Assembly (NCBI RefSeq): GCF_030413175.1
Contig: NZ_CP129212.1
Coordinates: forward strand, 5,804,450 to 5,868,449
Direction of reading: 5' to 3'
DNA: 64,000 bases
Source: Bradyrhizobium roseum
GTDB lineage: Bacteria > Pseudomonadota > Alphaproteobacteria > Rhizobiales > Xanthobacteraceae
A model generated the notes under the pieces. The model worked only from the letters and a program-made list of their open reading frames with translations, was not told the DNA's origin and searched no databases. Of the stretch, positions 13,191 to 45,222 are shown piece by piece (position 1 is the stretch's first letter; every line of letters starts with the position of its first letter). The position numbers were made by a program, and so were the translations under genes.

Positions 13191-13601
13191 TCAGGCAGCC
13201 TCGAATGGAAGATTGGTCGCGGCGCCGGACAGGATCGCCTGCTCCACCGGAAACAATGCCCGGATCCGCTTCAGCGCCTCGTAGTAACGCTTCCCCCCGA
13301 CCAGGTCGTCGATCGCCGCGAGGCCCTCGAGCATTTCCTGGTTCTCGCACACCGCCTTCAGGGCGGTGTGATGCTGCCCGTAAAGCGCGTCTGCATCCTG
13401 ATGGTCCGTCGGGTTCATCAGCATGAGCTGAACGATGAAATAGAGCTGCCGCAGCGCCGTGGTGGCGTCGGCCGCCTGCATGACCTGGCCTTCCAGAAGA
13501 AACATCACGTCGTTGACGAGTTCGATCGCGACCTTTCGGTCGACACGCAGCACCGCCCCGTTGACGTAGATGAGCTCTCCCGCCCGCAACGATATCTTCA
13601 T
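13191..13601 (-). CDS. flbT: Flagellin synthesis regulator FlbT
   Basis: This 136-residue protein matches the FlbT family (MKISLRAGELIYVNGAVLRV, LLEGQVMQAADATTALRQLY). In Caulobacter, FlbT binds flagellin mRNA 5' leaders and affects their stability or translation; in rhizobia it can act positively. Its start overlaps the flaF stop as ATGA. Both flagellin genes in this window have a conserved, foldable leader, a plausible target. Confidence 0.93.
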   Translation of the reverse strand: MKISLRAGELIYVNGAVLRVDRKVAIELVNDVMFLLEGQVMQAADATTALRQLYFIVQLMLMNPTDHQDADALYGQHHTALKAVCENQEMLEGLAAIDDLVGGKRYYEALKRIRALFPVEQAILSGAATNLPFEAA

Positions 13602-13945
13602 TGAAGCGCATCCCGGATCAGCCTGTTGATTTCGATCAGGCCCGTCACGTCATTCGACCTCTGGTCCCGCAAGCGGTCGGCTTCCTTGACGACCCACAGG
13701 CCGATCGAAATGATGTCGGCGCGCAGCTTGTCGGGAAACCCGTTTTCCGGATGCACGAGGTCCTCGATGAGGATGGTCCATAGCCGCCGGATGTAGAGCA
13801 GGCTTTCGATCAAATCCTCGTTGCTGAAGGAGCCCTGGCGAAGCCGCTCCAGCCGATCGATACCGAGACTCAAGGCCTGCCGCTCGCGCGCCCGCGCTTC
13901 GTGACCACTGTCTTCAACGACGGTCTCGTAGGCATCCCAAGTCAT
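13598..13945 (-). CDS. flaF: Flagellar biosynthesis regulator FlaF
   Basis: This protein of about 115 residues matches FlaF (YETVVEDSGHEARARERQAL, LWVVKEADRLRDQRSNDVTG). FlaF is a flagellin-specific secretion/translation factor paired with FlbT in alphaproteobacteria. I start at the ATG at 13945; a GTG three codons earlier (13954) is also possible, and neither has a strong ribosome site. It is followed directly by flbT. Confidence 0.9.
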   Translation of the reverse strand: MTWDAYETVVEDSGHEARARERQALSLGIDRLERLRQGSFSNEDLIESLLYIRRLWTILIEDLVHPENGFPDKLRADIISIGLWVVKEADRLRDQRSNDVTGLIEINRLIRDALQ

Positions 13946-14002
13946 GTGGACCACTCTGCAGAGGAGGCTGAATAGGAGCGAGGCAGCCGCATCAACCCTG
14001 CC

Positions 14003-24769: not shown

Positions 24770-25684
24770 TTACTTGAAGAGCGACAGGATGCTCTGGCTG
24801 TTCTGGTTGGCGATCGACAGTGCCTGCACGCCGAGCTGCTGCTGGACCTGCAGCGCCTGCAGACGGGTGGACTCCGCGTTCATGTCGGCGTCGACGAGCT
24901 GGCCGATACCGCGGGTCACCGAATCCATCAGCGACTTCACGAAGTCGGTATTGTTCTGAATGCGGTTCTTGATGGCGCCGAGGTCCGCGGCCGACTGGCT
25001 GACGGTGTTGATCGCGGCCACGACCTGCGCGATCAGGCCGTCGAGTGTGGTCTGGTCGGCCACCGAGTCGGTCAGCGCGCCGATGTTCATGTTGTCGATG
25101 GACACGGTGGTGGTACCGCTGACCGTATCGAGGATGCCGGTCTGCGTGGTGGTATACAGCGAGTAGTTGGCGACCGTGACCTGGATCGTGTTGATGGTCG
25201 GCGTGGCGCCCACGCGCGAGAACGACGACACGAGGTTGACGGTGGCCGGAGTCGTGGCATTCGTGCTGAGCCAGTTCACGCCGTTGAACGTCGCCGAGTT
25301 GGCGGTGTTCTTCATGTCCTGCTGGATCTGGGTGATTTCCGACTGGATCTTGGTCCGGTCGATGCCGGCCGTCTTGGCCTCGACCAGCAGCGCCTGAAGC
25401 TTGTTGAGGCCGCTGGTGCCTTCGTTGCCCAGGACCGCGGTCAGCGCAGTGTATTCGGTGTCGACCGTCGCGGCCGACAGCCCGAGCGAGTCGGACACCG
25501 CGGACAGCGCGGAATTGTCGGCCCGCATCGAGGTCGCGATCGACCAATAGGCCGAGTTGTCCGAAGCGGTTGCGACGCGCTGGCCGGTCGAGATCCGGTT
25601 TTCGGTGGTCTGCATGTTCGCGCTGACCGACCGCAAGGTCTGCAACGCGGTCATCGCCGCCGAATTGGTAAGCAAGGAAGCCAT
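24770..25684 (-). CDS. fliC: Flagellin, second of a tandem pair (lateral type)
   Basis: This 304-residue flagellin has conserved D0/D1 ends (LLTNSAAMTALQTLRSVSA; ending QQQLGVQALSIANQNSQSIL) and a small variable centre at about 140-200, so it lacks large outer domains and should give a thin filament. It is very similar to the next gene upstream (25910-26818). AAAGGGACAT provides the ribosome site, 8 nt from the ATG. It has its own sigma28-like promoter and a leader shared with its partner, so it is probably monocistronic. It corresponds to a lafA-type gene. Confidence 0.95.
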   Translation of the reverse strand: MASLLTNSAAMTALQTLRSVSANMQTTENRISTGQRVATASDNSAYWSIATSMRADNSALSAVSDSLGLSAATVDTEYTALTAVLGNEGTSGLNKLQALLVEAKTAGIDRTKIQSEITQIQQDMKNTANSATFNGVNWLSTNATTPATVNLVSSFSRVGATPTINTIQVTVANYSLYTTTQTGILDTVSGTTTVSIDNMNIGALTDSVADQTTLDGLIAQVVAAINTVSQSAADLGAIKNRIQNNTDFVKSLMDSVTRGIGQLVDADMNAESTRLQALQVQQQLGVQALSIANQNSQSILSLFK

Positions 25685-25689
25685 TGTCG

Positions 25690-25745
25690 ATGTCCCTTTG
25701 AGTTTGGAATTGAGTCTTTGGGGACATACCGGGCTTTCACCGGTA
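25690..25745 (-). promoter_or_regulatory. Structured 5' leader of the second flagellin gene
   Basis: In the mRNA, the hairpin UACCGG-UGAAAGC-CCGGUA (6 bp, plus-strand 25727-25745) is followed at once by AUGUCCC (25721-25727), which is a perfect reverse complement of GGGACAU (25690-25696) in the Shine-Dalgarno region, with a 24-nt loop. Pairing would hide the ribosome site. A 51-nt block, 25720-25770, recurs with 3 differences at 26859-26909 before the other flagellin. FlbT is a possible binding partner (inference). Confidence 0.6.
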
Positions 25746-25813
25746 CGACAGGGCGGCGTCATGCCTTTGGGTCGCGGATATCCGTCGAGGGCCCAACCCG
25801 TCGTAGCAGCAAG

Positions 25814-25841
25814 GGTATCGGCCGAACCTTGTGCTAAGCTT
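25814..25841 (-). promoter_or_regulatory. Sigma28-like promoter of the second flagellin gene
   Basis: On the minus strand the sequence reads CAAGCTTA, 12 nt, GCCGATAC. The -10 box matches 7 of 8 positions of the enterobacterial sigma28 consensus GCCGATAA. The -10 box ends 130 nt before the ATG, exactly as in the other flagellin gene. Confidence 0.55.
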
Positions 25842-25855
25842 GTGACTCCCGGGAC

Positions 25856-25886
25856 GAAAAAAAGGCCGCGCTCTGGAGAGCGCGGC
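25856..25886 (-). terminator. Rho-independent terminator of the first flagellin gene
   Basis: A near-perfect GC-rich stem of 10-11 bp (25863-25873 with 25876-25886) is followed on the minus strand by seven T residues (25856-25862). It lies 24 bp after the flagellin stop and separates this transcript from the next promoter. Confidence 0.88.
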
Positions 25887-25909
25887 CTTTCCGCCCGAAT
25901 GGTCCGGGC

Positions 25910-26818
25910 TTAGCGGAACAGGGACAGGATGCTCTGGGTGTTCTGGTTGGCGATCGACAGCGCCTGCACGCCGAGCTGCTGCTGGACCTGGAACGCCTGC
26001 AGACGGGTGGACTCGGCGTTCATGTCGGCATCGACGAGCTGACCGATACCGCGGGTCACCGAGTCCATCAGCGACTTCACGAAATTGGTGTTGTTCTCGA
26101 TGCGGTTCTTGATGGCGCCGAGGTCGGCGGCCGACTGGCTGACCGTGTTGATCGCGGCCGTGACCTGCGCGATAAAGCCATCGAGCGTGGTCTGGTCGGC
26201 GGTCGAATCGGTCAGCGCGCTGATGTCGATGGTGTCGATCGAGGCGGTGCCGTTCACCGTATCCAGGATGCCGCCCTGGGCGTTGGTATAGAGCGTATAG
26301 TCGGCAACCGTCACCGTAATCGAGTTGATGGTCGGCGTGCCGCCGACGCGAGAGAACGACGACACGAGATTGACCGTCGCCGGCGTCGTGGCATTCGTGC
26401 TCAGCCAGTTCACGCTGTTGAAGGTCGCAGACGCAGCCGTGCTCTTCATGTCCTGCTGGATCTGGGTGATTTCCGACTGGATCTTCGTCCGGTCGATACC
26501 GGCGGTCTTGGCTTCGACCAGCAGCGACTGGAGCTTGTTGAGACCGCTCTTGCCGTCGCTGCCGAGTACCGTGGTCAGCGCGGTGTACTGGGTATCGACG
26601 GTCGCGGCCGACAGACCGAGCGAGTCTGACACGGCTGACAGCGCGGCGTTGTCGGCACGCATCGAGGTCGCAATCGACCAATAGGCCGCGTTGTCCGAAG
26701 CGGTGGCAACACGCTGGCCGGTGGAGATCCGGTTTTGCGTGGTGGCCATGCTCTGGCCGATCGACTGCAGGGTCTGCAGTGCGGTCATGGCGGACGAGTT
26801 CGTGAGGAGGCTTGACAT
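25910..26818 (-). CDS. fliC: Flagellin, first of a tandem pair (lateral type)
   Basis: This 302-residue flagellin has the same short build as its neighbour: conserved ends (SSLLTNSSAMTALQTLQSIG; QQLGVQALSIANQNTQSIL) and a small variable centre. The ribosome site AAAGGGACAT is 8 nt from the ATG. A strong terminator follows, so it forms its own transcript. The pair looks like a recent tandem duplication, lafA1/lafA2 in type. Confidence 0.95.
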   Translation of the reverse strand: MSSLLTNSSAMTALQTLQSIGQSMATTQNRISTGQRVATASDNAAYWSIATSMRADNAALSAVSDSLGLSAATVDTQYTALTTVLGSDGKSGLNKLQSLLVEAKTAGIDRTKIQSEITQIQQDMKSTAASATFNSVNWLSTNATTPATVNLVSSFSRVGGTPTINSITVTVADYTLYTNAQGGILDTVNGTASIDTIDISALTDSTADQTTLDGFIAQVTAAINTVSQSAADLGAIKNRIENNTNFVKSLMDSVTRGIGQLVDADMNAESTRLQAFQVQQQLGVQALSIANQNTQSILSLFR

Positions 26819-26823
26819 GAAGA

Positions 26824-26883
26824 ATGTCCCTTTATGTACGCGTTAACTTTTTCATTGGGGGGACATACCGGGCTTTCACCGGT
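26824..26883 (-). promoter_or_regulatory. Structured 5' leader of the first flagellin gene
   Basis: The hairpin ACCGG-UGAAAGC-CCGGU (5 bp, 26867-26883) is followed by AUGUCCC (26860-26866), which pairs perfectly with GGGACAU (26824-26830) at the ribosome site across a 29-nt loop. The arms and hairpin are kept in both flagellin leaders although the loop sequence is not, which argues for an RNA structure under selection. Confidence 0.6.
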
Positions 26884-26947
26884 TCGGCAGGGCGGCATCA
26901 TGCCTTTGGACCGATATGGGTGGGGTCCAACCTGACGTGGCCCCTGA

Positions 26948-26975
26948 CTACCAGCCGAACGTTAGCCTTAGCTTA
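26948..26975 (-). promoter_or_regulatory. Sigma28-like promoter of the first flagellin gene
   Basis: On the minus strand the sequence reads TAAGCTAA, 12 nt, GCTGGTAG. It aligns with the other flagellin promoter, sharing GTTCGGC at the end of the spacer and start of the -10. The -10 box ends 130 nt before the ATG. Confidence 0.5.
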
Positions 26976-45146: not shown

Positions 45147-45222
45147 TGGTGGGCGCACCAGGGCTCGAACCTGGGACCCGATGATTAAGAGTCATCTGCT
45201 CTACCAACTGAGCTATGCGCCC
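45147..45222 (-). tRNA. tRNA-Lys (CTT anticodon)
   Basis: This 76-nt tRNA starts GGGCGCATAGCTCAG and has a 7-bp acceptor stem (GGGCGCA/TGCGCCC), anticodon loop CTCTTAA with CTT, the T-loop GGTTCGAGCC, discriminator A and an encoded CCA. Its 3' end faces the integrase remnant, so it is the likely attachment site. Confidence 0.97.

Follow-up and report, generated by a model that had tools for sequence, protein, structure and literature searches.

Two flagellin genes share a structured leader

We analyzed a stretch of 64,000 nucleotides (nt) of the Bradyrhizobium roseum genome (contig NZ_CP129212.1, positions 5,804,450 to 5,868,449; hereafter the window), in which two minus-strand flagellin genes are each preceded by a candidate RNA leader element. 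Flagellin A (302 amino acids, 25910-26818) and flagellin B (304 amino acids, 24770-25684) both carry PF00669 and PF00700 domains. They lie within a flagellar cluster that also holds FlhA, FlaF, FlbT, FlgL-like, FlgK, and FliF genes. The FlbT gene (13191-13601, minus strand; PF07378, 2.3e-39) was correctly named by a first-pass annotation of this DNA: its product scores 134.7 bits against PF07378, for which the cut-off is 27. It is overlapped from upstream by FlaF (13598-13954, minus strand; PF07309).

Upstream of the two flagellin genes is a 51-nt direct repeat (25720-25770 and 26859-26909) with 3 differences (94% identity). The first-pass annotation described this block as a hairpin with the loop UGAAAGC, followed by a heptamer, AUGUCCC, that could pair with GGGACAU at the Shine-Dalgarno region. 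The loop is as described, AUGUCCC lies at 26866-26860 and 25727-25721, and GGGACAU lies at 26830-26824 and 25696-25690, with spacers of 29 and 24 nt. The block is, however, only part of a larger fold, of which helices P1, P2, and P3 had been missed.

The complete element comprises helices P1 to P5 and occupies 26824-26941 in leader A and 25690-25807 in leader B, on the minus strand in both cases. P1 encloses P2 and P3; P4 follows, and almost immediately afterwards P5. The outer helix P1 is about 8 base pairs long and pairs UACGACAGG-like with CCUGUCGUA-like letters. In leader A (26883-26939) it is imperfect: positions 26939-26931 face 26891-26883 and, as read from the letters, CACGUCAGG forms 6 of 9 pairs with CCUGCCGAA; in leader B (25744-25805), positions 25805-25797 pair with 25752-25744 in the minimum free energy (MFE) fold. 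P2 is UUGGGC/GCCCAA, and its loop varies widely in length. P3, GGC-AUGAN-GCC, is the best conserved stretch of the element (GGC-AUGAU-GCC at 26894-26904 in leader A and GGC-AUGAC-GCC at 25755-25765 in leader B). P4 is CCGG, a 7-nt loop, and CCGG, frequently with one extra pair; it is the hairpin of the earlier annotation (CCGG-UGAAAGC-CCGG, 26868-26882 in leader A; 25729-25743 in leader B), and its loop resembles a T-loop, motif UGNRA. P5 is the AUGUCCC/GGGACAU pairing over the Shine-Dalgarno sequence (26824-26866 and 25690-25727), and it ends 5 nt upstream of the start codon in both leaders.

Two covariance models were used: R1, built from the genus, and the broader R2. Leader A scores 91.8 bits with R1 (E 1.9e-20) and 84 bits with R2 (whole-genome search), and leader B 110.3 bits (E 4.9e-25) and 91.5 bits, scores that are not independent because both leaders are among the sequences used to build the models. 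The MFE folds of both leaders include the 7-base-pair AUGUCCC/GGGACAU pairing. When the single sequences were compared with shuffled ones, their folds gave z scores of only -1.9 and -1.1, with 10 and 31 of 200 shuffles folding equally well or better. Such folds are no proof of structure, and we relied on covariation instead. Similarly, the presence of two copies beside duplicated genes is weak evidence against chance. That the element goes beyond chance follows from its occurrence in every recognized leader of the genus and from order-wide covariation, both described below.

The core of the element is conserved and covaries

To survey the genus, upstream regions of lateral-type flagellins were fetched; 67 of 146 genomes had a match, the B. 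roseum genome included. We read 67 stretches from the other 66 genomes together with the window. Each of these 68 contained at least one recognized start, 141 in total, a count that leaves out genes cut off by a contig end and genes that escaped the start pattern. The core is present in all 141 leaders, the two window copies included (140 with the strict core pattern and one with a single change).

Leaders with less than 90% identity (49 of the 141) were aligned. Nine of the 11 positions of P3 are invariant in 49/49 leaders, one changed once, and the last loop base is variable. On this closely related set, RNAalifold recovered P2 to P4 and the five inner pairs of P5, with two double-change pairs, but not P1. 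P1 was first read from the alignment by eye; it was then borne out by two further sets, more diverse and for the most part separate, both of which were aligned with models containing P1. Within the genus, P5 changes solely from U-A to U-G (15 cells, none broken). Because these are wobble changes only, the genus by itself cannot prove P5.

In the first diverse set (79 rows), double changes occur at 21 of 29 pairs, in 304 cells compared with 91 +/- 16 after shuffling. The second set (106 matches, 100 distinct), largely separate from the first, shows them at 26 of 29 pairs, in 440 cells compared with 121 +/- 18. By helix, the double-change pairs of the second set number 9/9 in P1, 6/6 in P2, 2/3 in P3, 4/4 in P4, and 5/7 in P5; for P1, the first set likewise gives 9/9. 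Every row was kept in these counts, and in either set the signal breaks down once the pairing partner is shifted by 1-3 columns. P1 and P2 covary strongly, and P5 weakly but measurably. The covariation check that had been proposed for the hairpin and the heptamer pairing is thus positive overall, with double changes in P1 to P5; within the genus alone, P5 offers nothing beyond wobble changes.

The outermost pair of P1 is not supported, being paired in 32/78 and 41/95 rows. Its 3' base fits the base after P4 better (53/78 and 59/94, where 38.8 and 39.4 are expected). For this count, L249, L250, L101, and the antisense matches of L223, L233, and L246 were dropped.

A further observation concerns the extension pair of P4 (alignment columns 69 and 85), which is often C-A (7/78 and 17/94), a pattern that would fit tolerance of a protonated wobble where P1 meets P4.

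P5 covers the ribosome-binding site in most leaders

Since the alignments were fitted to models, we tested P5 without an alignment, comparing the 9 nt after P4 with the 28 nt before the start codon. Under a strict start rule, 161 of 172 matches had a start, none was too short, and merging 11 duplicates left 150 distinct flagellin leaders. Of the 11 matches without a start, at least four look like flagellin leaders with P5 (L204, L209, L276, and L298), one (L101) belongs to a globin-coupled chemoreceptor, and six are of other kinds, among them three antisense artefacts. At least 6 contiguous P5 pairs can form in 132/150 leaders, compared with 9.7% when letters are shuffled, and at least 7 in 88/150, compared with 2.8%.

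The two arms of P5 also match each other within leaders. When 3' regions were exchanged among all 150 leaders, pairing went from -9.80 to -9.23 +/- 0.08 kcal/mol. For the 41 leaders with deviant arms it went from -6.44 to -5.55 +/- 0.27 kcal/mol, and with each distinct arm represented by a single leader (n=33) from -7.08 to -6.04 +/- 0.30 kcal/mol. In each comparison, 0 of 1000 exchanges were as low as the native pairing, although the leaders are related and so are not independent trials. A looser start rule points in the same direction: 106/128 leaders have at least 6 pairs, and 2 and 0 of 1000 exchanges were as low. That rule gave a start for 158 of 172 matches, of which 19 were left out for too short a stretch up to the start; some of its starts are wrong.

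Clear replacements of P5 include AUGUUCC/GGAACA (L292, L301), GUCUUUC/GAAAGAC (L313), ACUCA/UGAGU (L260), and UCUCG/CGAGG (L261). P5 is therefore real in most leaders, where it covers the ribosome site, is conserved, and shows compensatory change, and 14 of the 150 leaders pair weakly; some lineages do without it while P1-P4 remain. The covariation and the advantage of native over swapped P5 arms bear out the earlier suggestion of a structured leader able to sequester the ribosome site.

The element is widespread within the order

When 47 loci of other genera were fetched by flagellin similarity alone and then searched with R1, 39 matched at E 0.01 or better, and the matches mostly end just upstream of the flagellin start. 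Carriers include Pannonibacter, Roseibium, Hyphomicrobium, Mesorhizobium, Aminobacter, Agrobacterium, Ensifer, Shinella, and Rhizobium. R1 matches 31/198 genomes of the family, in 9/47 genera. R2 matches 75/297 genomes of the order, in 33/122 genera, at E <=0.001 per genome; about 0.3 chance matches are expected at this threshold, and more if the rough E values are off.

A class-level sample of 289 genomes, searched with strict filters, yielded the element in the B. roseum genome only. Among 29 flagellin loci from outside the order, for which the Caulobacter leader was not fetched by name, we found no credible element (best E 2.2 and 4.5). Within the B. roseum genome, only the two lateral flagellin leaders of the window are convincing, despite three FlbT genes. 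Two weak matches there, L249 (E 0.11) and L250 (E 0.63), apparently lie inside long open frames and were judged to be chance.

No family of Rfam 15 matches the element, whether the window was searched at the gathering threshold, the leaders at E up to 5, or 23 further loci (20 at gathering, 11 at E up to 1, and 8 in both). The covariance model of RF01736 (flg-Rhizobiales), which resembles our element in being a candidate structured Rhizobiales RNA with a flagellar name (PMC2864571), likewise has no match in the window, at the leaders (E up to 5), or at the 23 further loci.

The element precedes motility and cyclic di-GMP genes

The first-pass annotation tied the leader to flagellin genes, which is right but incomplete: chemotaxis genes carry the element too. 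We fetched 20 order-level matches, chosen mainly for lying away from large flagellin arrays, and all 20 precede motility or cyclic di-GMP (c-di-GMP) genes. Seven precede flagellins, identified from N-terminal letters without a profile scan (L260-L264, L268, and L273). Eleven precede chemotaxis genes: ten chemoreceptors (L255-L259, L265, L266, L269, L270, and L271) and a cheA-like gene (L267). The remaining two precede GGDEF-EAL genes (L272 and L274) and are among the weaker matches (E 7e-5 and 2e-4). Globin-coupled (protoglobin) chemoreceptors recur behind the element (L256-L259, L271, and also L101).

One GGDEF-EAL-preceding element is also listed as L274/L314/L356. In the genus of G584, one of three other genomes has the element, where it precedes a flagellin.

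The element tracks one subfamily of FlbT

A search of the 297 order genomes with the window FlbT found matches at E 5.5e-22 or better in 77 genomes; the next match is at 9e-9. Presence of this subfamily and presence of the element coincide almost perfectly: 73 genomes have both, 2 the element only, 4 the FlbT subfamily only, and 218 neither (phi 0.947), although kinship among the genomes and the joint inheritance of entire clusters mean that these counts are not independent. FlbT of any kind, in contrast, occurs in 210/297 genomes and by itself is no predictor of the element. Thus, the element tracks the subfamily of the window's FlbT and not FlbT in general, a narrower link than the one first claimed.

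The two genomes with the element only are G446, which is 86% complete, and G584, in which no FlbT was found. The FlbT subfamily occurs alone in G453, G491, G514, and G573. Guessed stretches of G491, G573, and G453 contained no recognizable flagellin, and the G514 contig was too short. Three of these four genomes belong to genus g105, whose other members score weakest for the element.

Phylogeny agrees with this division. A 100/100 branch separates the window FlbT and 20 element-linked FlbT from 20 unlinked ones, so that the window protein does not fall with the classical subfamily; the tree carries a long-branch warning, and 18 of its 38 inner branches are open. The linked FlbT were hand-chosen: 19 share a contig with an element match, and one (G557) is on another. 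The unlinked ones include the two other FlbT of the B. roseum genome, and three without a BLAST match were picked by pattern. Identity to the window FlbT is 43-83% for the linked proteins and 18-28% for 17 of the unlinked ones, with no BLAST match for the other three. We take the Caulobacter FlbT to be of the classical subfamily; PF07378 was found in Caulobacter vibrioides, at family level only.

The B. roseum genome (G000) contains three FlbT genes (454560-454925, 5302654-5303022, and 5817679-5818050), two that fall on the classical side and a third from the element-linked subfamily. Three FlbT genes suggest up to three flagellar gene sets, and the genome also has at least one other flagellin-like gene.

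A candidate leader activated by FlbT

In the passages of the literature available to us, the direction of FlbT control differs between systems. For B. diazoefficiens, a review describes FlbT as a translational inducer of LafA1 and LafA2 (PMC8429497), and Brucella FlbT activates flagellin production (PMC9812332, PMC8781033, PMC4347634). In Caulobacter, FlbT represses flagellin (PMC3930126, PMC7591256). One review regards the mode of action of FlbT on flagellin mRNA as unresolved (PMC4347634).

Combined with the structure described here, the simplest reading of these reports is a leader that P5 holds closed and that FlbT of the element-linked subfamily opens, and we think this is probably correct. 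The earlier suggestion was that FlbT opens or stabilizes the leaders; activation in the related systems favors opening over stabilizing (PMC8429497, PMC9812332, PMC4347634). The link to FlbT is supported by co-occurrence together with this literature. Under this reading, each flagellin mRNA would start with a structured RNA, P1 around P2 and P3, then P4, then P5 covering the Shine-Dalgarno sequence; lacking its partner, this RNA would rest with P5 closed and be poorly translated. FlbT of the element-linked subfamily, whose gene lies in the same flagellar cluster, would then recognize the P1-P4 core, we infer by direct binding and most likely at P3 and the P4 loop. Binding would open P5 or recruit ribosomes, such that flagellin is made when FlbT is present. 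Chemotaxis mRNAs that carry the core may be controlled likewise. The first-pass annotation also proposed that the switch couples flagellin synthesis to hook completion. This is not supported: we found nothing in its favor, and Brucella flgE and fliF mutants still produce flagellin, as passages of a review state (PMC8781033).

Several observations weigh against FlbT-driven opening of P5. The helix itself is uneven: its outermost pair is unpaired in 30/79 and 49/100 rows, and its double-change cells are few (15, second set). When the 41 deviant 5' arms were compared with the canonical arm on their own 3' regions, 10 paired better, 4 tied, and 27 paired worse. Most changes in P5 are thus wobble or affect one arm only. 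The 14 weakly pairing leaders (above -4.5 kcal/mol) include L299, L302, and L304-L306, all of one genus, which keep P1-P4 and have lost P5, with a AUGUCAAAA-like arm and an unpaired Shine-Dalgarno sequence. Since P1-P4 persist where P5 is weak, P5 is not the whole function. Some chemotaxis copies lie at least 100 nt upstream of the gene with no obvious P5 (not systematically checked). Furthermore, 8 of the 47 flagellin loci of other genera lack a good R1 match: four are weak (L106, L111, L118, and L119) and four have none (L076, which is cut short upstream, L103, L105, and L108). In G584, the element stands before a GGDEF-EAL gene in a genome where no FlbT was found. Finally, the element and the FlbT subfamily may co-occur simply as parts of a flagellar cluster type that is passed down as a whole.

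Flagellin, chemoreceptor, and GGDEF-EAL genes are the usual company of c-di-GMP riboswitches. The P1-P4 core could be a small-molecule riboswitch linked to motility, with c-di-GMP as the obvious candidate ligand, P5 as expression platform, and FlbT merely co-occurring. The modularity of the core, which persists where P5 is weak or lost, would fit such a role, as would the genes that follow it (those for flagellins and chemoreceptors, one cheA-like gene, and two of GGDEF-EAL type), its presence in G584, and the likeness of the P4 loop to a T-loop. We nevertheless regard a riboswitch as distinctly unlikely: strictly conserved bases are few and mostly confined to one small hairpin, P3; no Rfam riboswitch matches, known c-di-GMP classes included; the two GGDEF-EAL matches are among the weaker; and 73 of 75 genomes with the element have the FlbT subfamily. 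It is also unlikely, if somewhat less so, that the FlbT-element pair is real and acts mainly on mRNA stability or transcription instead of opening the Shine-Dalgarno sequence. This would account for the lineages in which P5 is weak or lost and for its mostly one-sided changes, and the lafA1 transcript reportedly needs FlbT_L in B. diazoefficiens. In Caulobacter, passages of a review describe FlbT binding as promoting decay of the target mRNA (PMC4347634). Yet most leaders have P5 covering the ribosome site, its native arms pair better than swapped ones, and the B. diazoefficiens effect is worded as translational induction (review passage, PMC8429497).

The partner of the leader could instead be another protein of the same type of flagellar cluster, with the FlbT correlation due to co-inheritance. 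Genes of one cluster type co-occur by descent, and our scan, which covered FlbT alone, cannot separate them. We consider this very unlikely, because FlbT is described, in the passages cited, as binding flagellin leaders in Caulobacter (PMC3930126) and as a translational inducer of these very flagellins (PMC8429497). Least credible is a DNA element (promoter or operator) or a leftover of gene duplication. A location upstream of two similar genes and a conserved, promoter-like CAAG-N-TTCG about 22 nt upstream of P1 would suit it, but P1 shows compensatory changes across P2 inserts of very different length, some P5 arms follow changes in the Shine-Dalgarno sequence, and the block is found in 33 genera, which together leave it hardly any room.

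Beyond the flagellin leaders, the P1-P4 domain could be an uncatalogued RNA that forms a dispersed post-transcriptional motility regulon in Hyphomicrobiales. A single fold, present on mRNAs for flagellins, chemoreceptors (repeatedly globin-coupled ones), che products, and GGDEF-EAL proteins, would be read by a dedicated FlbT subfamily whose role has changed from repression to activation, or else by a signal, for instance c-di-GMP; P5 would be one output module among several. We offer this more tentatively, as a view with slightly more against it than for it.

Relation to known systems

Leaders whose structure hides the ribosome site are already known, as is the action of FlbT on flagellin leaders. 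What appears new is the fold itself, together with its extension to chemotaxis genes and its link to a single FlbT subfamily. As far as the consulted passages go, the Caulobacter crescentus fljK leaders are alike in combining an FlbT-family protein, a flagellin 5' leader, and post-transcriptional control (PMC3930126, PMC4347634, PMC7591256); unlike our candidate, that FlbT represses and works with FljJ. The FlbT_L-lafA1/lafA2 system of B. diazoefficiens and the FlbT-fliC system of Brucella share the kind of flagellins and FlbT and the activating direction, but the passages on them name no RNA structure (PMC8429497, PMC9812332, PMC8781033). CsrA-FliW-flagellin circuits, from partial accounts, also control translation of flagellin mRNA at the leader, with another protein and another RNA. 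The c-di-GMP riboswitches differ in that the element has no Rfam match to their known classes. No flagellin leader structure is announced for this group in the titles and abstract openings that we covered, which include few subscription papers and not a 2017 list of 224 candidate RNAs.

The element offers a defined candidate RNA target for FlbT and predicts an off state whose helix can be broken and restored by compensating changes. A step of FlbT control that has been known for a long time without an explanation thereby becomes testable. Two FlbT subfamilies could explain the opposite signs of control, repression in Caulobacter and activation in Brucella and Bradyrhizobium. Chemotaxis mRNAs are suggested as members of the same RNA regulon.

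Transcription of the leaders and other features of the window

A strong terminator-like hairpin with a U run, read from the sequence, lies between the two flagellin genes (25858-25890, minus strand); a pattern scan for terminators did not report it. Given this hairpin, leader B is probably transcribed on its own. A sigma-70 promoter scan found nothing at either leader. A start-site map of Bradyrhizobium does not contain "flagell" in its main text, and one of Sinorhizobium places CtrA motifs at flaA, flaC, and flaD.

A conserved CAAG/TAAC-N-TTCG block lies about 22 nt upstream of P1, at 26950-26965 and 25816-25830 of the window. Among 140 genus leaders, TTCG occurs 127 times at -22 or -21, and the block is possibly a promoter. 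Elsewhere in the window, Rfam identifies a tRNA gene at 45150-45222 on the minus strand.

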